DNA of 64,000 nt from an uncultured Prevotellaceae bacterium (GCA_946415705.1 CAMKTN010000008.1:1-64000); one strand, 5' to 3'. Shown: positions 5,021 to 41,547, counted from the first letter of the stretch. Numbers and translations: made by a program. The notes: generated from the letters alone by a model not told the origin.

Positions 5021-7231
5021 TCACTTCAGATGGTCCTCGAACCAGCGGGTGATGCTGCTGTAGAGGTGATGGCGGGTGTTGCCGCCCTGGATGAAGTGGT
5101 TGCGGTTGGTATAGACGAGCTGCATGAAGGGGATGTCGGCCTGAACGAGGGCTTCGGTGAACTCGGCGGTATTGCGGTAGTGCACGTTGTCATCGGCTGT
5201 GCCGTGGCAGATGAGGAGGGCTCCGTGGAGCTTTTTGGCGCGGGTCATCGGGTTGCGGTCGTAGCCGGTGGGGTTTTCCTTGGGCGTGCGCATATAACGC
5301 TCGGTATAGACGCTGTCGTAGAAGCGGTAGTTGGTGACGGGCGCCACAGCCACACCGGCGGCGAAGACACCGCGGCCCTCGGTCATGGACATCAGCGTGT
5401 TGAAGCCGCCGTAGCTCCAGCCCCAGATGCCGATGCGGTCCTTATCGACATAGGGTAGCGAGGCGAGATAGAGGGCGGTCTCCACCTGGTCCTTGGCTTC
5501 GAGCAGACCGAGGTTCTGATAGGTCTGCTTCTCGAACTGGGCACCACGGCCGCCTGTGCCGCGACCATCCACGCAGACGCAGATATAGCCCTGCTGGGCG
5601 AGGTAGTGCTCATAGAGGCAGCCGCCCATGTTGCCAACCCACCAGGAGTCGAGGACCTGCTGCGAGCCGGGGCCGCTGTACTGGTACATGACAACGGGAA
5701 GACCCACCCCCGTGCCCCTCCCGTCAGGGAGGGGAGTTGAGGGCTTGATGATATAGCCATTGAGCTCTACGCCCTCGCTGGTCTTGAACGAAAAGAATTC
5801 GGGCTTAGGCAAGTTGAGCGTTGAGAGTTTAGAGTTGAGAGACGCATTGTCCTCCAGCGTCGCCAACACCTTACCCTTGGCGTCGTTGAGGGTGGTCACG
5901 GGCGGGGTGGTGATGTTGGAATAGACATTCATGAAGTACTTGAAGGTCTTGGCGAAGGTGGCGCCGTTGGTGCCTCGCTGCTGGCTGAGGCAGGTGACGT
6001 TGCCCTTGGCATCGGCGCGATAGACGGCCTGATACTGAGGCCCTTCGGGGTTGGCAGCGTAGTAGCAGTCGCCCGTCTGCGGGTTGTAGCCGTAGAAGGC
6101 TTTGACCACGAAGTCGCCCTTGGTGAGCTGGCGCTGCAGGGTGCCGTTGAGGTCGTAGAGATAGAGATGGTTATATCCGCTGCGCTCGCTGGTGAGCACG
6201 AAGCCGCCGGGGAATACCTGCAGGTTCTTGAAGGGTTCCTCGGTGATGTACTTGTCCACTTGGTCGCGCACGATGAGCTTGCACTCCGTGGAGCGGGGAT
6301 TGGCGGCGTAGATATCGAGGCGGTCCTGATGGCGGTTGAGGGTGAGCACGAGGAGCTTCTCGGGGTCGCTGGTGAAGCGGATGCGGGGCACATAGCCGTC
6401 GGCATCGAGGGGCAGCTTCATCTGTTGGATGCGGTGGCTCTTGATGTCGTAGCTATGCACGGTGACCTTCGCGTTCTGCTCACCGGCGATGGGGTATTTG
6501 TAGGTGTAGGCCCCCGGGTAGTCGGCATATTCCTCCAGGGCAGGGTTCGCACCTTTGTAGAGGGGGAAGGAGAACTGCTTCACGGCGCTCTCGTCGTAGC
6601 GAATCCACGCCAGCATCGTACCGTCGGCGTTGAAGTCGAAGGCGCGTGCGAAGGAGAACTCCTCCTCGTTGACCCAGTCGGGTTTGCCGTTGATGATCTT
6701 GTTGAACTCGCCGTCCTTCGTCACCTGGCTCTCGGCATTGTCGAAGAGTAGCTTCACCAGGAAGAGGTTGTTGTCGCGCACGAAAGCCACCATCGTGCCG
6801 TCGGGCGAGAAGGCGGGCACCTCTTGCGGGCCGCCGTCGCTGAGGCGTGCCAGCGTTTGGTTGCGTACATTATATATATAGTACACGGCCGTGAAGCTGT
6901 GACGATAGATGCGCTTCGTCTCGGTCTGGATGAGGATGGTCTGCTCATCGGGGCTCATGATGTAACCGTCGATGCTGTTGAGGCGCACACCGCGGGCGGT
7001 GGCCACGTCGAAGAGCACCGCTGTCTGTTCGCCCGTGCGGAAAGAGCGCGCGATGATCTGTCGCGAGTCCGCCGACAGCTGGCTGTAGCGCTCGCCGTCG
7101 TTGAGGGGTCGCACACCGTAGATGCCCTTGGCACTGTAGGCGCCAGCTGTGAGGTCCTTGAGGGTCAGCTCGCCAGCCAGTGCAGGCAGCAGACATACAC
7201 AGAGGGTCAGGAGGAAGAAGATTCTTTTCAT
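5021..7231 (-). CDS. Dipeptidyl peptidase IV-type S9 family peptidase
   Basis: Signal peptide; beta-propeller; GWSYGGFNTLMSM nucleophile motif; HGTADDNVH. Confidence 0.93.
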   Translation of the reverse strand: MKRIFFLLTLCVCLLPALAGELTLKDLTAGAYSAKGIYGVRPLNDGERYSQLSADSRQIIARSFRTGEQTAVLFDVATARGVRLNSIDGYIMSPDEQTILIQTETKRIYRHSFTAVYYIYNVRNQTLARLSDGGPQEVPAFSPDGTMVAFVRDNNLFLVKLLFDNAESQVTKDGEFNKIINGKPDWVNEEEFSFARAFDFNADGTMLAWIRYDESAVKQFSFPLYKGANPALEEYADYPGAYTYKYPIAGEQNAKVTVHSYDIKSHRIQQMKLPLDADGYVPRIRFTSDPEKLLVLTLNRHQDRLDIYAANPRSTECKLIVRDQVDKYITEEPFKNLQVFPGGFVLTSERSGYNHLYLYDLNGTLQRQLTKGDFVVKAFYGYNPQTGDCYYAANPEGPQYQAVYRADAKGNVTCLSQQRGTNGATFAKTFKYFMNVYSNITTPPVTTLNDAKGKVLATLEDNASLNSKLSTLNLPKPEFFSFKTSEGVELNGYIIKPSTPLPDGRGTGVGLPVVMYQYSGPGSQQVLDSWWVGNMGGCLYEHYLAQQGYICVCVDGRGTGGRGAQFEKQTYQNLGLLEAKDQVETALYLASLPYVDKDRIGIWGWSYGGFNTLMSMTEGRGVFAAGVAVAPVTNYRFYDSVYTERYMRTPKENPTGYDRNPMTRAKKLHGALLICHGTADDNVHYRNTAEFTEALVQADIPFMQLVYTNRNHFIQGGNTRHHLYSSITRWFEDHLK
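5715..5734. repeat. G/C-rich palindromic element (CCCCTCCC-GTCA-GGGAGGGG) inside DPP coding sequence
   Basis: 8-bp perfect arms; encodes STPLPDGRGTGVG on the minus strand. Confidence 0.8.
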
Positions 7232-14200: not shown

Positions 14201-15367
14201 ATGCAACAAGAACAACGCCCCAAACAAATCGCCATCCTCGGTTCCACCGGCAGCATCGGCACACAGGCCCTGCAAGTCATCGCCGAGCACCCTGACCGTT
14301 TCGAAGCCCGCGTGCTCACGGCCAACAATCGCTGGGAGCTGCTTGTCGAGCAGGCACGGACCTTCAAGCCCGCTGCCGTGGTGATCGCCAACGACACCTA
14401 CTACCCCGCCGTGCGTGACGCCCTTGCCGACCTTCCTATCGCCGTCTATGCAGGTGCCGAGGCGCTCTGCCAGGTGGTAGAGGGCACCGAGGTTGATATG
14501 GTGCTCACGGCGATGGTGGGTTTTGCCGGTTTGCCGCCCACGATTGCTGCCATTCGCGCTGGCAAGCCCATTGCGCTGGCCAACAAGGAGACGATGGTCG
14601 TGGCCGGTGAGCTCATCAATGGCCTCTGCCGACAGTATCAGGTGCCCATTCTGCCCGTCGATAGCGAGCATAGCGCCATCTTCCAAAGTATTATGGGCGA
14701 GGTGTCTCCGATAGAGAAGATCATCCTGACGGCCTCCGGAGGTCCCTTCCGTACATTCACGCGCGAACAACTGGAGACCGTAACCCCTGCTATGGCGCTG
14801 AAGCATCCCAACTGGGACATGGGCGCCAAGATCACCATCGACTCCGCGTCCATGATGAATAAAGGCTTCGAGGTCATCGAGGCCAAGTGGCTCTTCGGCG
14901 TGGAGCCCGATAGGATCCAAGTCGTCGTGCATCCGCAGAGCGTCGTGCACAGCGCCGTGCAGTTTGCCGACGGTGCCGTGAAGGCGCAGCTCGGCGTGCC
15001 CGATATGCGCGTGCCCATTCAGCTGGCCTTCTCGTTCCCCGAACGTCTGCAGAGTAGCTTCGACCGTCTAGACTGGTACGCCATGCACGACCTGACCTTC
15101 GAGCGTCCCGACACCGAGCGCTTCCGCTGCCTCGCCCTCGCCTATGAGAGCCTGCGCCAAGGTGGCAATATGCCGTGTATCGTGAATGCCGCCAACGAGA
15201 TTGTCAACCGCGCCTTCCTCGACGGCCGCTGCCGCTTCCTGGAAATGCCCGATATCATCGAACAGACCATGCAGCGCACGCCCTTCATCAAGGCCCCGTC
15301 CTACGAGGACTACCTCGCCACCGATGCCGAAGCCAGACGCATTGCAGCATCACTTCTTGGGTCGTAA
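14201..15367 (+). CDS. dxr: 1-deoxy-D-xylulose-5-phosphate reductoisomerase
   Basis: IAILGSTGSIGTQALQVI; ALANKETMVVAGELI; DSEHSAIFQ. Confidence 0.97.
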   Translation: MQQEQRPKQIAILGSTGSIGTQALQVIAEHPDRFEARVLTANNRWELLVEQARTFKPAAVVIANDTYYPAVRDALADLPIAVYAGAEALCQVVEGTEVDMVLTAMVGFAGLPPTIAAIRAGKPIALANKETMVVAGELINGLCRQYQVPILPVDSEHSAIFQSIMGEVSPIEKIILTASGGPFRTFTREQLETVTPAMALKHPNWDMGAKITIDSASMMNKGFEVIEAKWLFGVEPDRIQVVVHPQSVVHSAVQFADGAVKAQLGVPDMRVPIQLAFSFPERLQSSFDRLDWYAMHDLTFERPDTERFRCLALAYESLRQGGNMPCIVNAANEIVNRAFLDGRCRFLEMPDIIEQTMQRTPFIKAPSYEDYLATDAEARRIAASLLGS

Positions 15368-15420
15368 TAACGAAATAACGTTATAACGTAATAACGAATA
15401 AAGTCTTTAATGAAAAATAT

Positions 15421-21448: not shown

Positions 21449-21509
21449 GCCCCTTTGGAGGGGGAGAGTGCTCACCTTTGGCATGAGCGATAAGATATGA
21501 AGGTAACTC

Positions 21510-30269: not shown

Positions 30270-31229
30270 ATGATGGACTCAAATCTCTTCTTTATCATAG
30301 TCAGCAGCAGCATTTGCATTGTAGGTTCATTCCTTATGTATGCAAAATCGAAAGCTGAAGAACGGAGAAAACTGAGGGAGAGTGAGGGCGTATTTAATCA
30401 GCCCAAGCCTCAGGAGAATCAAAGCAGTCCGAAGGAAGAACATGTTCCAGAGGAGGTCAAGGTAGAAGAGATCTCTGAAAGTACAGAGAAAAAAGAAGTA
30501 TCAGAGGAAACTGACGAGGAAATCGTAGAAGCCGTACACGAAGGCAACAGCTATAGAAGTGTTGCAATCGCATTGTTCAGTATCGGCTTACTTATCATTG
30601 CTTGGCTCGTTCCAACGATTCTCATCGAAAACCGAAAGGGAAAAGAGGAAAGGCAAAAAAGAGAAGAACTCCAACGCCAATTTTGGGAACAGCAGGCTAA
30701 AGAGCAGCTAAGAACCATCGAGGAAAACAAGCGTAGAGCCCCCAAAGCATGGGATAACACGCCAGAAGAAATCAAGGAGAAAAAAGGCCGACAAATCCAA
30801 GAACGACACGTTAAGAAAATGCAAGATGCAGGCTACACCTATCTGCAGAAAACACTTCAGGAGGTGGAGTCGAAACGTGGGCAATATACGATTCTTCCCC
30901 ATTATAAGAAGTCCGAGAGGCGTTTGGGGAATGTCGTACATGAGCTGGATCAAGAACTATGGAGCTGCAACTTCCTTTATTGCGGAGAATTTGGAAAGCA
31001 CTATGAGGGTAATGGGCATTTGAGATGGAATGAGGTGGATTTCATAGATGGTACGTTCCAGGATGGATGGATAGAACAAGGTGTAGGATCGGTACATCTT
31101 GTCGGGAATCGACACTACGAAGGCCAATTCATGAATGGCTATGCACAGGGCTTCGGCCGCATGACCTATGCGGACTGTCATGTTGAAGAAGGCGTCTTTT
31201 CCCAAGGACAATACAGCGGAAAATACTGA
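30270..31229 (+). CDS. Membrane protein with C-terminal MORN repeats, function unknown
   Basis: Two hydrophobic segments; Glu-rich linker; C-terminus HYEGNGHLRWNEVDFIDGTFQDGWIEQGVGSVHLVGNRHYEGQFMNGYAQGFGRMTY. Confidence 0.72.
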   Translation: MMDSNLFFIIVSSSICIVGSFLMYAKSKAEERRKLRESEGVFNQPKPQENQSSPKEEHVPEEVKVEEISESTEKKEVSEETDEEIVEAVHEGNSYRSVAIALFSIGLLIIAWLVPTILIENRKGKEERQKREELQRQFWEQQAKEQLRTIEENKRRAPKAWDNTPEEIKEKKGRQIQERHVKKMQDAGYTYLQKTLQEVESKRGQYTILPHYKKSERRLGNVVHELDQELWSCNFLYCGEFGKHYEGNGHLRWNEVDFIDGTFQDGWIEQGVGSVHLVGNRHYEGQFMNGYAQGFGRMTYADCHVEEGVFSQGQYSGKY

Positions 31230-31284
31230 CACGTCCTAGTGCGGGGGGATGCCTGAGCGCTACATTTTTCACCGAAATAGCTTA

Positions 31285-31521
31285 AAACCTTACACCTCGC
31301 GCAAAATGGATGCAATTAGTTGCTATACAGTGGATTGCAGCGCGCGCAACCCTACGCAACCCTACGCAACCCTACGCAACCTCGCGCAAGGTCGCGCAAA
31401 CTAGAGGGGCGGCTGCGTGTAGGGTTGCGTGAGGTTGCGCGAGGTTGCGTAGGGGTTTGCACGGGGTTAATAGGCTGACTTCCATGGGAGTTATGAGGGT
31501 TTTGCGCGAGGTGCGAGGTTT
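31285..31521. repeat. Large nested inverted-repeat region with 10-bp units (CCTACGCAAC / GTTGCGTAGG)
   Basis: Outer arms AAACCTtaCACCTCGCGCAAAA (31285-31306) and TTTTGCGCGAGGTGcgAGGTTT (31500-31521); three direct CCTACGCAAC units (31351-31380) and three reverse-oriented GGTTGCGYRA/G units near 31423-31453. Confidence 0.85.
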
Positions 31522-31582
31522 CCATTCATTTCATGTTTTTTTGTCATGAGCGATCAGGAGAAGGAGGAAGTGGGAAAAAGAA

Positions 31583-34269: not shown

Positions 34270-35319
34270 TCATTCTGCTTTTAGCAGCGGCATGTATTTC
34301 TGCACGGCTTTCTTGACGAGGGCGAGGGCGTCGTCCATGGTGCCCCAGACTTCGCCGCCAGCGGCATTCTTGTGGCCACCGCCGCCGAAGAACTCGGCAG
34401 CCATCTCGTTGCAGGGGAAGTCATCGACGCTGCGGAGGCTGACGCGGATGCAGGGATGCTCGGTGTCCTCGCGAAGGAAGACGGAGAGCTTCATGCCGAG
34501 GATCTGCAGGGGCATATTGACGAAGCCTTCCGTGTCGCCATTGAGTGCGCCGAAGCGACGGCGCTCGGCATTGGTGAAGGTCATCACAGAGGTATGGGCC
34601 TTCTTCCATACATCGAGCTTCACATAGAGCAGGTAGCCCATGAGTTTCATGCGGTTGGGGCTGTAGGTGAAGAAGATGTTGCGGTAGATCTTATCCTTGT
34701 CGATGCCGCAGGAGAGGAGGATGCTGATGAGTTCGAAGATCTCGGGGCGGTTGCTGGCATAGGTGAAGGCCCCGGTGTCGGTCATCATGCCGGTGTAGAG
34801 GGAGGTGGCTTCGGAGCGTGTGATGTTGGAGTCTAACTCCAACATTACACGCAACAGCACCTCGCAAGTGGAGGAGAGTTCGGGGTGGGAGATGACGAGG
34901 TCGGCGATGTCGGGCTCGGGATCGAGATGGTGGTCGATCATGATGCGGGGCGTGGGGTGGTCGCGGACGATATCACCGAGGGTCCACATGCGTTTGAGCT
35001 CGCCATGGTCACACATGATGACGAGGTCGGCGGCCTCCACGATTGGGCGCACCTCGTCCTCATGCCCCTCGTAGATGAGGATGTCTTCGGCCCCAGGGAT
35101 CCACTTGAGGAAATCGGGGAAGATGTTGGGTGCGACGATGTGGATGTCTGCCTCGGGGTGGTGGCGGCGCAGCCAGGAGGCCAGCGCCGTGGCGGAGCCG
35201 ACGGCATCGCCGTCAGGACCGCGGTGGCAGGTGATGACGATAGCCCCCTCCCGACCTCCCCCAAGGGGGAGGAGCTGGTGCCAGAGGGCGCGTTGTTGTT
35301 CGGTTAATATGGGGGTCAT
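34270..35319 (-). CDS. DHH-family phosphoesterase / NrnA-like oligoribonuclease
   Basis: TCHRGPDGDAVGSATAL; MIDHHLDP; LYTGMMTDTGAFTY; GGGGHKNAAGG. Start set at MTPILTEQQ. Confidence 0.92.
   Translation of the reverse strand: MTPILTEQQRALWHQLLPLGGGREGAIVITCHRGPDGDAVGSATALASWLRRHHPEADIHIVAPNIFPDFLKWIPGAEDILIYEGHEDEVRPIVEAADLVIMCDHGELKRMWTLGDIVRDHPTPRIMIDHHLDPEPDIADLVISHPELSSTCEVLLRVMLELDSNITRSEATSLYTGMMTDTGAFTYASNRPEIFELISILLSCGIDKDKIYRNIFFTYSPNRMKLMGYLLYVKLDVWKKAHTSVMTFTNAERRRFGALNGDTEGFVNMPLQILGMKLSVFLREDTEHPCIRVSLRSVDDFPCNEMAAEFFGGGGHKNAAGGEVWGTMDDALALVKKAVQKYMPLLKAE
35243..35275. repeat. G/C-rich palindromic element inside the nrnA-like coding sequence
   Basis: CCTCCCCCAAGGGGGAGG core; encodes PLGGGREGA. 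Confidence 0.75.
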
Positions 35320-35351
35320 GGGACTTATGGGGCCTATAAGGCCAATAGGGC

Positions 35352-37685
35352 TTATTGGGTTTTTACTTCGCTCCACGCGGGTGGATCGATGCCGAGGAGG
35401 TTCTTGACGAAGAAGTCAAAGCGCTTGTGCTCACCATAGGCTTCGCCTACGGTGTGGTGGGCGCCGGGGACGACGACGAGTTCGAAGGGCTTGTTGGCCT
35501 TGATGAGGGCATCGGCGACTTGCATGGTGCTGGCGGGATCGACATTGTCATCGAGTTCGCCGACGACGAGCATCAGCGGGCGCTCGAGGCGGTAGGCGTT
35601 CTCGACATTGGAGCAGGCGACATACGAGGAGTCCACGGGGTAGCCCATCCATTGCTCGTTCCACCAGATCTTATCCATGCGGTTGTCATGGCAGCCGCAG
35701 GCGCTGTAGGCGGCCTTGTAGAAGTCGCCGTGGAAGAGGACGGCCGCGGTGCTCTCCTGACCGCCGGCGGAGCAGCCGTAGATGCCTACGCGGTCGATGT
35801 CCATATAGGGATACTTGGCAGCGGCGGCCTTAATCCATGCAATGCGGTCGGGGAAGCCGGCATCCTTGAGGTTCTTATAGCATACCTCCTCGAATTTCTT
35901 GCCGCGGTTGCTGGTGCCCATGGCATCGAGCTGCACGACGATGAAACCGAGCTCGGCGAGGAGGGTGGTGTAGAAGTTATAGGGTTGGAAGGATTTGGGC
36001 ACGTAGCTGTCGCCCGGACCTGCGTAGATGTACTCGATGATGGGGTACTTGCGGCTTGGGTCGAAGTGGGTGGGGCGTTGGATGATGCCCCACATGGGGG
36101 TGACGCCGTCGCGGCCGGGGGCCACAAAGACCTCGGGGGCTGTCCAGCCGTCGGCGAGGAGGGGGGTAATTTCGGCGGTGGAGAGGACTTTCTCGGCGGG
36201 AGAAGGGCCGAGGGCGGGCGCAGCGGGAGAAACCGCAGCGGACGAACCGCTGCGAACGGGGTGGCTATTGGGGGTGGATGGGGGGGCGGCGATGGTGCGG
36301 ACGACGGTCACGGGGGCGGTATCGACGGTGGAGTAGGTGTCGATGAAGGCAGTGTAGTCGGCGTTGAAGCGGGCGTTGTGGTTGGCGGGCTCGGGGGTGA
36401 GGTCGGTGAGGCCGCTGCCATCGAGGTTCACGCGGTAGTAATGAATATGGTAGGGGTCCTCGTCTTTGTTGCGGCCGTTGGCGGTGAAGAAGATGACATC
36501 CTTCTCTTCATCTACATGAAGGACTTTGCGAACACACCAAGGCCCCTTTGTAATTTGGAAGAGTGAAGCAGAATGATGTTTGCTGCCTTTCTTTCTCCCC
36601 TCGCCCTTTGGAGAGGGGTCGGGGGTGAGGCCATACAGATGTGGATAGCCATCTCTTTCGGAGAGCCAGAGGATGAGGCTGTCGCCGTGGAGGTCGCGGC
36701 GGAAATAGTTGGAGTAGCGGACATATTTCTCTTCGCGCTCTTCGATGAGGGTGCGGAGGGGAGCGGTCTCGGCGGCAGAAGCGCCGAGTGCACTGGCTTC
36801 AGGGATCTGCATCTCGTAGATGCGGTAGAGCTTGTGGCCGCGTTGGTTGTATTCGAAGCGGATGCCGCGTGAGTCCTTGCGCCAGGAGGGGCCGCTGAGG
36901 CTGTACTGGTTGGCGATGAGGGCAGGGTCGGGCGTCAGGGAGCGGCCTGTGGCGACCTCGAAGATGTAAGGGGTCTTCTGCGCCAGCTCATCGCCGGGTT
37001 TGGCATATTCCTGCTTGTGGAGAACGGGCTGGAGCTGGTCGGCGGGGCTGCTCTCCACGTAATAGACGTAACGCTTCTCAATGGGGCGGATGCGGTTGAC
37101 GGCTACGTAGCGGCTGTCAGGACTCCATTGGATATAGCTGCTGAAATAGTGGCTGATGGTGCCTTCGGTGCTGAGGGCGCGGGCCTGGCTGCCGTCGGGC
37201 TTGGCGACATAGACGTTGTCGTTGCGGATGAAGGCCACGAGGGAGGAGTCGGGGGCGAGGACGGGGTCGCCGCCGCGCTCGTCGTCGGTCTCCATCCAAT
37301 GGCGCTGCTGCGGGCGCTTGGAGGGGTTGGCGATGAAGCGGATGCCCGCGGCGGACGTACCGCCGCGAACGGGGCCGTGGCGGCGGTCATGGCGGGGGGA
37401 TTCTTCGATGGGGCGGGTGGCTGTGGTGTCGGCGAGGGTGATGGTGCCGTCGGCGTTGACTTGGCCGAAATGCCATGCGCCGTGGGTGCCGTCGGTGAGG
37501 TGGTACTGGAAACGGCCGTCGGAGAGCCAGCGGGCATCATCGACGTGGTTCAACACCTTGTTCCAGGTGAAGGTGCGCCGTAGGGCATAGGCGCGGTTGT
37601 AGTCGTCCACGGTGCCCTGAGCGGACAGGGAAATGATAAATGATAAATGATAAATAATAAATGATAAATATCGCTTCATTGTCAT
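35352..37685 (-). CDS. S9 family peptidase (DPP-IV-like)
   Basis: GIYGCSAGGQESTAAVL nucleophile region; VVPGAHHTVGE; signal peptide. Confidence 0.9.
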   Translation of the reverse strand: MTMKRYLSFIIYHLSFIISLSAQGTVDDYNRAYALRRTFTWNKVLNHVDDARWLSDGRFQYHLTDGTHGAWHFGQVNADGTITLADTTATRPIEESPRHDRRHGPVRGGTSAAGIRFIANPSKRPQQRHWMETDDERGGDPVLAPDSSLVAFIRNDNVYVAKPDGSQARALSTEGTISHYFSSYIQWSPDSRYVAVNRIRPIEKRYVYYVESSPADQLQPVLHKQEYAKPGDELAQKTPYIFEVATGRSLTPDPALIANQYSLSGPSWRKDSRGIRFEYNQRGHKLYRIYEMQIPEASALGASAAETAPLRTLIEEREEKYVRYSNYFRRDLHGDSLILWLSERDGYPHLYGLTPDPSPKGEGRKKGSKHHSASLFQITKGPWCVRKVLHVDEEKDVIFFTANGRNKDEDPYHIHYYRVNLDGSGLTDLTPEPANHNARFNADYTAFIDTYSTVDTAPVTVVRTIAAPPSTPNSHPVRSGSSAAVSPAAPALGPSPAEKVLSTAEITPLLADGWTAPEVFVAPGRDGVTPMWGIIQRPTHFDPSRKYPIIEYIYAGPGDSYVPKSFQPYNFYTTLLAELGFIVVQLDAMGTSNRGKKFEEVCYKNLKDAGFPDRIAWIKAAAAKYPYMDIDRVGIYGCSAGGQESTAAVLFHGDFYKAAYSACGCHDNRMDKIWWNEQWMGYPVDSSYVACSNVENAYRLERPLMLVVGELDDNVDPASTMQVADALIKANKPFELVVVPGAHHTVGEAYGEHKRFDFFVKNLLGIDPPAWSEVKTQ
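36234..36254. repeat. Palindrome CGCAGCGG-ACGAA-CCGCTGCG in S9 peptidase coding sequence
   Basis: 8-bp arms, ACGNA loop; encodes PVRSGSSAAV. Confidence 0.78.
36597..36632. repeat. G/C-rich palindromic element in S9 peptidase coding sequence
   Basis: CCCCTCGCCCTTTGGAGAGGGGTCGGGGGTGAGGCC; encodes LTPDPSPKGEG. Confidence 0.78.
37347..37367. repeat. Palindrome CGCGGCGG-ACGTA-CCGCCGCG in S9 peptidase coding sequence
   Basis: 8-bp arms, ACGNA loop; encodes PVRGGTSAAG. Confidence 0.78.
37634..37668. repeat. Heptanucleotide repeat (TGATAAA)x5 in signal-peptide coding region
   Basis: Four exact TGATAAA and one TAATAAA unit. Confidence 0.85.
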
Positions 37686-39433
37686 TTCGGGGCTTTGGGT
37701 GAGGCAGCGGTGTGGCCGTCGATGGTTTGATCGGCGATGCGGAGCTGTGCAGGGGTGGCATCGTGCTTGATGACCTTGGCGAACTCCTGAGGGGTGATAG
37801 TGACGGGGCCTGAGAGGAATTCGGGGATATTATAGCTGCGCATGAACTGGCGATGGTACTGCGGGTTGTCCTGCGGCAACTCGAAGGGGCGCGAGAAATG
37901 GCCCTTTCCATCATGGTGAGCGATGAAGGGACGGGTGAAGTTTCCATCGTCGCGGCGGCTGGAGAAGATGACCCAGGCTCCATTGCTGGACCAACAGTGC
38001 CAGCTCTCCACATCGTTGGAGTTGAGTTCCTTGATGTTACGGATGGCAGCGGGTAAGGGGTGCTGACGCCCTGCGGCCTCGTTGAGGCTGTCGATGGCGG
38101 CATCGCGTTCGATGTTGTTGGTGATGCGGGCCAGAATCTCATCGGGCAGGTTGTCAGCGGTGTAGCGTACGACGGGCGTGGGCTCCACGGGGGAGGCCTG
38201 TGTGAGATCCATGAGGAAAAGGTCGGCATCGTTGTGCCAGATGTGGAAGATGCCAAACTGTCCCTCGGTGAACATCAGCCATCGGCCGTCGGGCGAAACG
38301 CGGGGGAGGGTAACGCTGCGGTTGCGGGCCACGGCATCGTAGATGAGCTGCCGCGGACCGAAGGAGCGTGTCTGCTCATCGAACGGCTTGCGGTAGAGGT
38401 TGTACTGCACGTCCTTGTAGTTCTTGATGAGCTCGAAGTCCATCTGCACGGTGTCGCGTTTCTCCCAGTGGCAGCTGACGTAGTAGATATATTTGCCGTC
38501 GGGGCTCCAGAAGGGGAAGCAGTCGAAGTCTGTGGTGTCGCGCGTGATGGGCGTGACGGTGTTCGCTTCGAGGTCGTAGAAGATGAGGTTCGACTTGGTG
38601 TCCTGCACCTCAATCTTCTGCACGTCGCGCGTGTGGAAGCTCTGACCTGTGTTGTTAGTGGAATAGACAATCCAGGGCTTTGTGGGATGCCAGGTGGGAT
38701 AGACACCGGCGGAGATGGTGCTGTCGGTCTTGAGGTTGATTTTCTCTACCTTACCATCGTAGGCGATGACGGTGCCGCCGAGGTACTGGCGCACATGGAA
38801 CTGTATGCGGTTGGGGTTGTACCATTGTGCGTGGTGGCAGTTGATGCACTGCCCGTTCTTCTCATCGCTGTTGATCATGTTGCCATAGATGAGGCGCTCG
38901 TCGAAGTTCTCCAGACAACGCTGGTTGAGGGTGAGGTCTTCGTAGGTGACGTAGGAGGGCGAGATGAGGCGGTAGGAGATGTAGGGGTCGATGCTGTCTG
39001 CCGAGACCGTAATGTCAAAGGGCTTCTGGCGTTGCCACTGTCCGTTGTCCTTGATGAAGACCTCGATGCTGATGGTGCCGTCAGATGCAAGCGCCACCTC
39101 TTTCATGGCGCTCCATTTGTCGAGACCTGGGCGCACATCCTCGCCGCCCACAACCCATTCTTCATCGCCTGCTGTAAAGCGGGTAACGAAGTCGGTGGCT
39201 TCCGCACCGTGGTCGATGTGAAAGTGAAGAGGAGCAATGTTCACGGGCACGGTGACACCGATGTAATCGGGGTAAATGGTGGGGGATGCGTCAGCCTCAA
39301 CGAATTGCTCGGGGACGGAGGGGGAGGAGCAGGCGCAAAGAATAAAGACCCACCCCCAAACCCCTCCATTGAGGGAGAGGAGAAGCTGGTGCGATGGTAT
39401 GAAAGCACGCAAAAAAGAATGAATATTAATCAT
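37682..39433 (-). CDS. TolB-like/PD40 beta-propeller protein with a CxxCH motif
   Basis: NGQCINCHHAQWYNP; PDGKYIYYVS, SPDGRWLMFT WD40/PD40 motifs; N-terminal lipobox-like CACSS. Confidence 0.75.
   Translation of the reverse strand: MINIHSFLRAFIPSHQLLLSLNGGVWGWVFILCACSSPSVPEQFVEADASPTIYPDYIGVTVPVNIAPLHFHIDHGAEATDFVTRFTAGDEEWVVGGEDVRPGLDKWSAMKEVALASDGTISIEVFIKDNGQWQRQKPFDITVSADSIDPYISYRLISPSYVTYEDLTLNQRCLENFDERLIYGNMINSDEKNGQCINCHHAQWYNPNRIQFHVRQYLGGTVIAYDGKVEKINLKTDSTISAGVYPTWHPTKPWIVYSTNNTGQSFHTRDVQKIEVQDTKSNLIFYDLEANTVTPITRDTTDFDCFPFWSPDGKYIYYVSCHWEKRDTVQMDFELIKNYKDVQYNLYRKPFDEQTRSFGPRQLIYDAVARNRSVTLPRVSPDGRWLMFTEGQFGIFHIWHNDADLFLMDLTQASPVEPTPVVRYTADNLPDEILARITNNIERDAAIDSLNEAAGRQHPLPAAIRNIKELNSNDVESWHCWSSNGAWVIFSSRRDDGNFTRPFIAHHDGKGHFSRPFELPQDNPQYHRQFMRSYNIPEFLSGPVTITPQEFAKVIKHDATPAQLRIADQTIDGHTAASPKAPK
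39361..39380. repeat. G/C-rich palindromic element at N-terminal coding region
   Basis: CCCCTCCATTGAGGGAGAGG; encodes LSLNGGVWGW. Confidence 0.65.
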
Positions 39434-39461
39434 ATAATGCTAGAGATTACTAGAGGACTAA

Positions 39462-39498
39462 CTCCCCTCCCTAACGGGAGGGGGACGGGGGTGGGTCC
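39462..39498. repeat. G/C-rich palindromic element, intergenic
   Basis: CTCCCCTCCCTAACGGGAGGGGGACGGGGGTGGGTCC. Confidence 0.8.
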
Positions 39499-41490
39499 TT
39501 AATTGGTCTTTTGATTTCTGACTAAGAAATAGAAGTAGTAGAAGGTGTTGCCGAACTGGGGATAGAAGGCGACGGCTTTCTGCTCCTCGGTCATGGGGCC
39601 GCATTGCTCATTGAAGCGCATGAAACGCTCGTAGGTGTCGCGGATCTCGGGGTCGAAGGGCATACGGCTGATGTCCACCTTGTCCTCCAGATGGCCGTAG
39701 AGGTAGGCGGCCTCCTGGTAGTGGCGTGGCATGTGGCGCTCAGGATTCATGGTGGCGAACTTCATGAAGCGGGGCCAGAAGAGGTCGATGTCCTTCATGA
39801 TGAGTGCGCAGATGAGTGTCATCTCCTGGAAGAGTGGGTCGTCGCCGTTGCCTTTGGCGAAGGTCTGCAGGAGGTACATCTCCACGAGCGTGTTGTCACC
39901 GTCGAGGCGGTCGGGGTAGGTCATCATGTGGAGGATGGGCGCGAACTCCTTCATGCTTTGTTCGTCGAGGAGGGGCTTTCCTGCCTTGGCGGAGGCTTCC
40001 AGCTTGTCAAGGTCAAAGGCTTCCGGGGAGTCGAGCAAGCGCTCATACCGCTCTGCCCACTCGCGGTGGAAGGTGGTCTTCTTCAGCAGGTCGAGGTACT
40101 TGCGGGCTACGGCCCATTCGTGGTTGAGCATGGAGGTGCGGGCCATGAATTTCAGCGTCTCGGCCTTCCAGCCGAACTCCACACCGTCCTCCATACACCA
40201 GCGGTAGCAGAAGTTCTCCTTGCCGTAGTGGTAGTAGATGGGTTTGCCACCGACCTGCGTGATGCGCACTTTCCACGGCGCGTTCTGGGGTGTGGCCCCC
40301 TCGGGGTAGAAGAACATCTCGTCGCCGGCACGTCCGAGGCGGAAGAGAGCCAGGTTCTTGTACAAAATCATCTGGCGCGTGGGCTTCACGTCGCTGCTGC
40401 CATCGCGGGCGATGGTGAGGACGCGCTCCCAGTCCAGTTCTTCTACGGCGCGATTCATGGCCAGCTCCTTGTGGAAGTTGGCATCGCGGTACCAGACATG
40501 GCTGACGCCGAAGATGGCAAGGGCGATAAGTAAAATGAGAGCCCCTTCCCTGACCCCTCCCCTGTTAGGGAGGGGAACTTTAAAGAAACGTACACCCTTT
40601 TCTGTTAGGAAGCTCACGAGCCATAGAATCAGGAAGGCGACGATGATGGCGTAGTAGGGGAGACGGTACTGCTCGAAGCTTTCGGCGCTGTAGCGGAAGG
40701 AGGGCATGGCAGCGACATAAAGGAAGGAGCGCTCGGTCATCTCAAAGACATGCTGGTAGTAGAGTTGAGGGACAGCGGCGATGAGGATGATCGCCACAAC
40801 CATCTCCGTCCATTTGGGCCGAGAGGTGTGTGCTGCCACCAGTCCCGTGGATCCTAATGCCCAGGCACCGAAAAAGGGGTAACCGGCGATGCAGACGAGA
40901 GCAATCCAGGCGAGGCGTGCCCAGCGGGCTGCCTTTTCGGGGAGGTGGTCGGTGAGCAAACGCTGCACGGCAAGGCAGAGGGTGGCGAAGAGGACGCCGA
41001 CGGTGGGCACGAAGAGGTGGCCGGGAAGCTTCTGGTAATAGATCCAGTAGCCCGTCTGTACGAAGCACGCCATGAGGGCCAGCGGCACGAGGGCTGTGAG
41101 GGCCACCCACGTTCCCTTCAAGCGGTAGCTCCATGCCAACAGCGCACAGATGAGCATCCAGAGGCCGCAGAGGATGCTGACCCCCACCCAAGGATGATAG
41201 AAGAATTGGGTCAGGTAGGTGGCACACCACGAGGCGGCACCACCCGGGTATTGCATCAGCGTCTTCCAATAGAGCCCTGTAGGGAGCCATAGGTTCAACT
41301 CTTGGGCGCGCAGGAGCATCTCGCCCTCCAAGCTTACGAGTCGGAAGGCGAAGATAGCAATGAGGAGGGCAATAATAATAAAGGCCACGGCCCCTCCCCC
41401 GACCCCTCCCCTGTTAGGGAGGGGAGATTTTAGGGAGATTGGAGCGGATGCTGTTGAACTATTGGATTGCTTTTGTTTTGTTCCTTTCAT
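39499..41490 (-). CDS. DUF6057-like multi-pass membrane protein
   Basis: N-terminal half with multiple hydrophobic segments, C-terminal soluble helical region; position next to the PD40/CxxCH gene. Confidence 0.62.
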   Translation of the reverse strand: MKGTKQKQSNSSTASAPISLKSPLPNRGGVGGGAVAFIIIALLIAIFAFRLVSLEGEMLLRAQELNLWLPTGLYWKTLMQYPGGAASWCATYLTQFFYHPWVGVSILCGLWMLICALLAWSYRLKGTWVALTALVPLALMACFVQTGYWIYYQKLPGHLFVPTVGVLFATLCLAVQRLLTDHLPEKAARWARLAWIALVCIAGYPFFGAWALGSTGLVAAHTSRPKWTEMVVAIILIAAVPQLYYQHVFEMTERSFLYVAAMPSFRYSAESFEQYRLPYYAIIVAFLILWLVSFLTEKGVRFFKVPLPNRGGVREGALILLIALAIFGVSHVWYRDANFHKELAMNRAVEELDWERVLTIARDGSSDVKPTRQMILYKNLALFRLGRAGDEMFFYPEGATPQNAPWKVRITQVGGKPIYYHYGKENFCYRWCMEDGVEFGWKAETLKFMARTSMLNHEWAVARKYLDLLKKTTFHREWAERYERLLDSPEAFDLDKLEASAKAGKPLLDEQSMKEFAPILHMMTYPDRLDGDNTLVEMYLLQTFAKGNGDDPLFQEMTLICALIMKDIDLFWPRFMKFATMNPERHMPRHYQEAAYLYGHLEDKVDISRMPFDPEIRDTYERFMRFNEQCGPMTEEQKAVAFYPQFGNTFYYFYFLVRNQKTN
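40541..40577. repeat. G/C-rich palindromic element in coding sequence
   Basis: GCCCCTTCCCTGACCCCTCCCCTGTTAGGGAGGGGAA; encodes VPLPNRGGVREGA. Confidence 0.82.
41390..41427. repeat. G/C-rich palindromic element in coding sequence
   Basis: GCCCCTCCCCCGACCCCTCCCCTGTTAGGGAGGGGAGA; encodes SPLPNRGGVGGGA. Confidence 0.82.
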
Positions 41491-41507
41491 TGTTTGATTG
41501 GTAAAGA

Positions 41508-41546
41508 CTCCCCTCCCTAACAGGGGAGGGGTTGGGGGAGAGGCCT
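41508..41546. repeat. G/C-rich palindromic element, intergenic, inverted relative to 41390..41427
   Basis: CTCCCCTCCCTAACAGGGGAGGGGTTGGGGGAGAGGCCT. Confidence 0.82.
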
Positions 41547-41547
41547 T

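Follow-up and report, generated by a model that had tools for sequence, protein, structure and literature searches.

Palindromic repeats within and between genes of a rumen bacterium are probably the arms of a small mobile element whose full-length form carries a DUF559 nuclease gene

The window, the whole 64-kb stretch of DNA that we analyzed, belongs to the 2.5-Mb MAG of a rumen bacterium (the own genome below). It carries copies of a G/C-rich palindromic arm in peptidase, phosphoesterase, lipoprotein, and membrane protein genes and upstream of two of these genes (Table 1). A preliminary description of the window had listed nine copies. Seven of these scored strongly with our covariance model R1 (39.6 to 62 bits), the one at 35243 scored weakly, and the one at 21450 (R1 6.1 bits, E=10) proved to be a chance match and not a family member. 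A covariance scan and an ORF check confirmed that the element is dispersed and palindromic, that it lies both between genes and in frame within proteins, that the ORFs remain open, and that the peptides quoted earlier are correct. The claim that only two copies are intergenic was right as a count, but each of these two, at 39460 and 41506, is the upstream arm of an inverted pair whose second arm is coding. An Rfam search of the window gave zero matches.

Table 1. Arms in the 64-kb window, with R1 scores and gene context
Feature	Coordinates	Strand	R1 score	Context and peptide
Solo arm	5698-5738	-	49.0 bits	In frame in DPP IV-like peptidase ORF 5021-7231(-); peptide STPLPDGRGTGVG
Weak arm, possibly decayed	35240-35276	-	16.5 bits, E=0.0044	In frame close to N-terminus of DHH phosphoesterase ORF 34270-35376(-); peptide PLGGGREG
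Arm	36593-36634	+	50.5 bits	In frame in DPP IV-like peptidase ORF 35352-37685(-); peptide LTPDPSPKGEG
Coding arm of start-straddling pair 39344-39500	39344-39384	-	39.6 bits	Encodes part of predicted lipoprotein signal peptide (LLLSLNGGVWGWVFILCAC) of ORF 37682-39433(-)
Upstream non-coding arm of pair 39344-39500	39460-39500	+	54.7 bits	Start codon 39433 between arms
Solo arm	40538-40579	-	50.1 bits	In frame in DUF6057 membrane protein ORF 39499-41490(-); peptide VPLPNRGGVREG
Coding arm of start-straddling pair 41387-41547	41387-41428	-	61.2 bits	N-terminal extension SPLPNRGGVGGG of DUF6057 protein
Upstream non-coding arm of pair 41387-41547	41506-41547	+	61.9 bits	Start codon 41490 between arms

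The preliminary description had also proposed aligning the host proteins with their orthologues, and we found that the inserts are absent from most of them. The arm at 5698 is missing from all 29 other aligned DPP IV orthologues, which have a short ordinary loop in its place, and the arm at 40538 is missing from the aligned DUF6057 orthologues. At the loop of the 36593 arm, the related species G065 has a complete inverted in-frame pair, and the remaining orthologues have varied non-element loops. The G065 orthologue of ORF 37682-39433(-) lacks arms, and its signal peptide is ordinary. Being in frame and absent from most orthologues, the inserts do behave like Rickettsia palindromic elements, as had been suggested.

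The window contains other repeats as well. A tandem octamer array (CGTAATAA/CGAAATAA) lies at 15363-15410, and its octamer reappears in several units, in the leader from the upstream arm to the start codon. A separate GCAACC/GGTTGC complex of direct and inverted repeats occupies 31270-31535, between two ORFs whose ends are at 31229 and 31705.

Each arm consists of a G/C hairpin and a one-sided G-rich tail, with the consensus nnCTCCCCTCCC-loop-GGGAGGGG-nn-GGGGGTGGGTCCTT. We built R1, which spans 42 nt of hairpin and tail, from 23 copies (alignment A1). The stem pairing has some covariation support, chiefly from one C-G pair that changes to U-A. Position counts around 287 copies showed that (T/A)ACT precedes the hairpin and that the outer end carries GG(G/A)TCT/GGCC, and they revealed no GTAG/CGTC tetranucleotide tag by the palindrome. 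We rejected a G-quadruplex as a defining feature because the four-tract motif occurs in just 169 of the 287 copies.

Simple peptides in variable loops could be nothing more than ordinary P/G-rich loops written in G/C-rich codons. The counts contradict this reading. We found 10 matches in the window to the pattern CCCCTCCC-N6-GGGAGGGG (up to 3 mismatches), compared with 0.48 expected from shuffles, and 86 per strand genome-wide, compared with 1 for the reversed control pattern; the copies exceed compositional chance, a point on which the preliminary description had staked its claim. In addition, identical arm DNA is used on either strand and in multiple frames. We consider a chance origin extremely improbable. 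The profile search that had been proposed gave at least 150 R1 matches in the own genome and from 0 to more than 100 copies in 60 other species of the genus; R1 was trained on own-genome copies and so undercounts in distant genomes, and the MAGs are incomplete. We found no open-access paper with the arm peptides or repeat sequences that we searched for.

The element had been described as a single palindrome. It is palindromic, but the actual unit comprises two arms in inverted orientation. We analyzed the stretches around the copies in the own genome and in G065, about 390 kb in each, and found that 79 of the 82 neighboring copies no more than 250 nt apart are inverted ('-+'), with tails pointing outward and a spacing of 19 to 165 nt. 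The two arms of a pair are more similar than arms that have been re-paired, both in the own genome (0.839 versus 0.760±0.008) and in G065 (0.765 versus 0.713±0.010). The arrangement was replicated in loci from named genomes, the majority of them rumen Prevotella and Bacteroidaceae, where 40 of 45 close neighbors are '-+'. Target duplications, which had been suggested as something to look for, did not appear: there is no excess of 2- to 8-nt duplications at the 79 pairs. We also rejected a REPIN with a conserved spacer, as the spacers are mostly locus-specific and some pairs enclose host sequence, for instance in DapF-like and GltB-like genes. Host sequence that lies between the arms in the DapF-like and GltB-like genes and at the DUF6057 start is not explained by simple insertion of a whole unit.

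Some units stand apart. The spacer of the unit at L239:1501-1662 is 100% identical to that at L289:1501-1662, one in the own species and the other in G065, and the genes that we compared between these species are about 80% identical; this spacer was possibly transferred recently. At L227:12755-13223, a standard arm is paired with a diverged arm (GTCTCCCCTCACGGGGAGATTTAGAGGGGTC type), and such heterotypic pairs, found also at L242, L247, and L260, recall BIME mosaics.

We assigned gene context with a simple codon-usage caller. By this measure, 128 of the 287 copies (about 45%) lie deep inside ORFs, 65 lie no more than 40 codons from an N-terminus, and 28 are wholly intergenic. Frame use strongly favors a small set of polar, stop-free peptides (SPLPNRGGVGGGA, LPSLTGGVGGGS, RPTPDPSREGGE, and LTPDPSPKGEGS). 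Empty sites, which had also been proposed as something to look for, were found: among 40 own-genome units with an orthologous site located in G065, 23 are empty there.

The pairs are also placed nonrandomly with respect to start codons. In the own genome and G065, a start codon lies between the arms in 41 of 79 pairs, compared with about 6 expected by random placement, and it is usually 25 to 35 nt ahead of the downstream arm. Consistently with this, the other genomes have a start codon between the arms in 13 of 40 pairs, compared with 2.4 expected. The native start has been lost in a TrpS-like gene, a native MNT has been replaced in an S4-domain protein, and MISI has been replaced in a DHFR-like gene, these gene names being our reading of the sequences. 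The open frames and the lost native starts support translation of the inserts in vivo. A mobile promoter in the spacers was rejected, since the motif TAnnTTTG is upstream of the start in 0 of 41. In several species, the DUF6057 start is bordered by inverted arms that differ in sequence around the same host N-terminus yet remain complementary. The arms thus turn over together, and the host sequence stays.

Such placement raises the possibility that the pairs are long hairpins selected as cis-regulators of translation or mRNA stability at start codons, with the peptides as by-products. The start straddling and its replication fit this idea, as does complementarity that is kept while the arm sequence varies by species at one locus. 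Both window units fold strongly as RNA, placing the start codon in the loop (z=-9.7 for the entire unit 39344-39500; z=-10.7 for the entire unit 41387-41547, whose arms pair around the start codon). However, the copies deep inside ORFs are not accounted for, nor is a copy number that varies so widely within one genus, with many sites empty in relatives. We regard cis-regulation as an improbable explanation for the family, although the pairs could have a secondary regulatory role.

The preliminary description gave the mobilization route as unknown, and it had overlooked that the arms form inverted pairs, that these pairs often straddle start codons, and that in other parts of the genome a nuclease gene is enclosed by such arms. 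With that gene, a probable candidate can be named. At 35 of 50 loci in the genus, R1 arms lie on both sides of DUF559 in '-+' orientation. A model-free test in the genus found inverted repeats flanking DUF559 (PF04480) at 48 of 49 loci, compared with 3 of 49 loci for RAYT-like genes, and elsewhere in the phylum they flank DUF559 at 19 of 26 loci. The arms of one DUF559 element match each other (0.851 versus 0.705±0.010 when re-paired). In the analyzed stretches, all three '-+' pairs spaced 419 to 434 nt apart hold DUF559, and five wider pairs do not. The arms of the DUF559 element at G000:C3:75179 are 98 to 100% identical to short-unit arms of its own host genome; at C10:49879 in the own genome, one DUF559 flank has no close short-unit relatives. 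Across 61 genomes, the numbers of DUF559 genes and arms are correlated (rho 0.64; partial correlation given genome size and relatedness 0.47, p=0.0004; distant genomes 0.65), with relatedness corrected only crudely in these copy-number correlations and species not independent. Two element-rich genomes, G018 (105 copies) and G026 (22 copies), yielded no DUF559, and both are incomplete MAGs.

We found that residues E15, D42, H59, and D68 of the EDxHD motif are invariant across 48 DUF559 sequences. DUF559 folds like I-Bth0305I, an EDxHD homing endonuclease, and like Vsr (TM 0.73 to 0.79). The DUF559 profile matches I-Bth0305I (E=5e-9), a member of the EDxHD homing endonuclease family (PMC3943268), and a PADLOC homing endonuclease model matches DUF559 (E=3e-7). 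VsrA, a DUF559 protein of Caulobacter, has been linked to DNA damage in vivo (PMC12907096). DUF559 occurs in frame inside LeuS, MetH, HsdR, and HsdM and in fusions in which it follows IspG (GcpE) or iPGM or precedes Gmk or UvrA. The UvrA frame at L236:13817-17260 (G000:C1) has DUF559 at its N-terminus and about ten in-frame arms; REPs are also reported within uvrA genes of other bacteria (PMC3733652). Neither intron RNA (Rfam, 20 DUF559 loci) nor an intein domain (19 DUF559 ORFs) was detected. The titles and abstracts of open-access DUF559 papers did not link this family to palindromic repeats.

A search for RAYT-like transposases, also proposed earlier, showed that RAYT-like HUH proteins are present and that element arms do not flank them. 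They form a multi-copy family (G000:C9:33094-34305 [L176] and further loci L177 to L225) that scores under the Pfam and NCBIfam cutoffs; in the own genome, PF01797 gives just one HUH match, a subthreshold one. The modeled protein is predicted to combine an HUH domain like those of ISDra2, IS608, and RAYT with a C-terminal DprA/ShosA-like domain. These transposases might move a REPIN/BIME-type family in which DUF559 is cargo or a passenger. Tailed hairpins, inverted pairs, and the lack of target-site duplication are REPIN-like (PMC3116915), and RAYT-like genes occur in 22 of the 23 genomes that have 20 or more arm copies, compared with 13 of the 38 others. Their number is correlated with arm number overall (rho 0.61, partial 0.41). 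In the distant genomes, however, this correlation is weak and not significant (rho 0.24), and arms or inverted repeats flank only 3 of 49 RAYT-like loci and bracket DUF559 instead. We consider mobilization by the HUH family unlikely; the HUH protein may help, as a weaker candidate than DUF559.

The architecture, the pairing, the bias in frame and start codon, the presence and absence among relatives, and the DUF559 genes with matched arms are all observed in the sequences. Taken together, they suggest that the palindromes are probably the arms at the ends of a small mobile element, with DUF559 in the full-length form and with short units and solo arms derived from it. The gene most likely to be responsible for mobilization is DUF559, an EDxHD/Vsr-like nuclease related to I-Bth0305I, and this nuclease probably spreads the element. 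According to this model, the full-length form of about 500 to 550 bp would consist of arm(-), one short DUF559 ORF, and arm(+), with tails outward, and the arm-spacer-arm units of about 100 to 250 bp and the solo arms would be non-autonomous derivatives or remnants. DUF559 would nick or cut DNA at target sites or at structured arms, and break repair or template switching would then copy the unit or its arms into the cut, as in homing but at non-allelic sites. Within genes, only stop-free, in-frame copies would survive. The surviving inserts would become P/G/charged linkers or, where the unit contains the start codon, N-terminal extensions, and a full-length element in frame would yield a nuclease-host fusion protein.

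We also lean, with less confidence, toward regarding this as a new class of bacterial mobile element, in which palindromic arms surround an EDxHD nuclease with no transposase, insertions are in frame without splicing, arm-only derivatives arise, and start codons and N-termini have been replaced repeatedly across Bacteroidota. If true, this would give a role to DUF559, a common family of functionally uncharacterized proteins, and a transposase-free mobilization route to palindromic repeats. It would describe a mobile element that persists because it is translated, supplying host genes with linkers, N-termini, and start codons, and it would account for the unusual P/G-rich peptides in annotated enzymes of Bacteroidota and for their fusions to DUF559.

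Among known systems, REP/REPIN/BIME-RAYT families (PMC3116915; PMC3733652) likewise consist of short, tailed palindromes in many copies, with inverted doublets, variable spacers, and no target-site duplication, and some REPs also lie within ORFs. In contrast, the arms here bracket a DUF559 nuclease and not a RAYT, they straddle start codons, and they are not predominantly extragenic, with close to half of the copies falling within ORFs; in P. fluorescens SBW25, just 14 of the 16-mers overlapped genes (PMC3116915). The GTAG/CGTC REPs (PMC3733652) differ in their conserved tag, which is not seen in our consensus. Rickettsia palindromic elements (summarized in PMC3733652) are likewise palindromes in frame in unrelated proteins and translated through. 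They differ from the inverted two-arm unit, the longer nuclease-gene form, and the host phylum described here, and their sequence is probably unrelated to that of the arms. EDxHD homing endonucleases of the I-Bth0305I type (PMC3943268) share the nuclease fold and the E-D-x-H-D residues, as does Vsr, and, like DUF559, their genes are lodged in conserved host genes. However, palindromic arms flank DUF559 in place of an intron or intein, there are many non-allelic sites per genome and arm-only derivatives, and DUF559 has no long DNA-binding tail. Unlike MITEs and their autonomous DDE transposons, the units have no target-site duplication and no DDE transposase between arms; what they share with MITEs is the occurrence of non-autonomous inverted-arm units beside a longer, enzyme-coding form.
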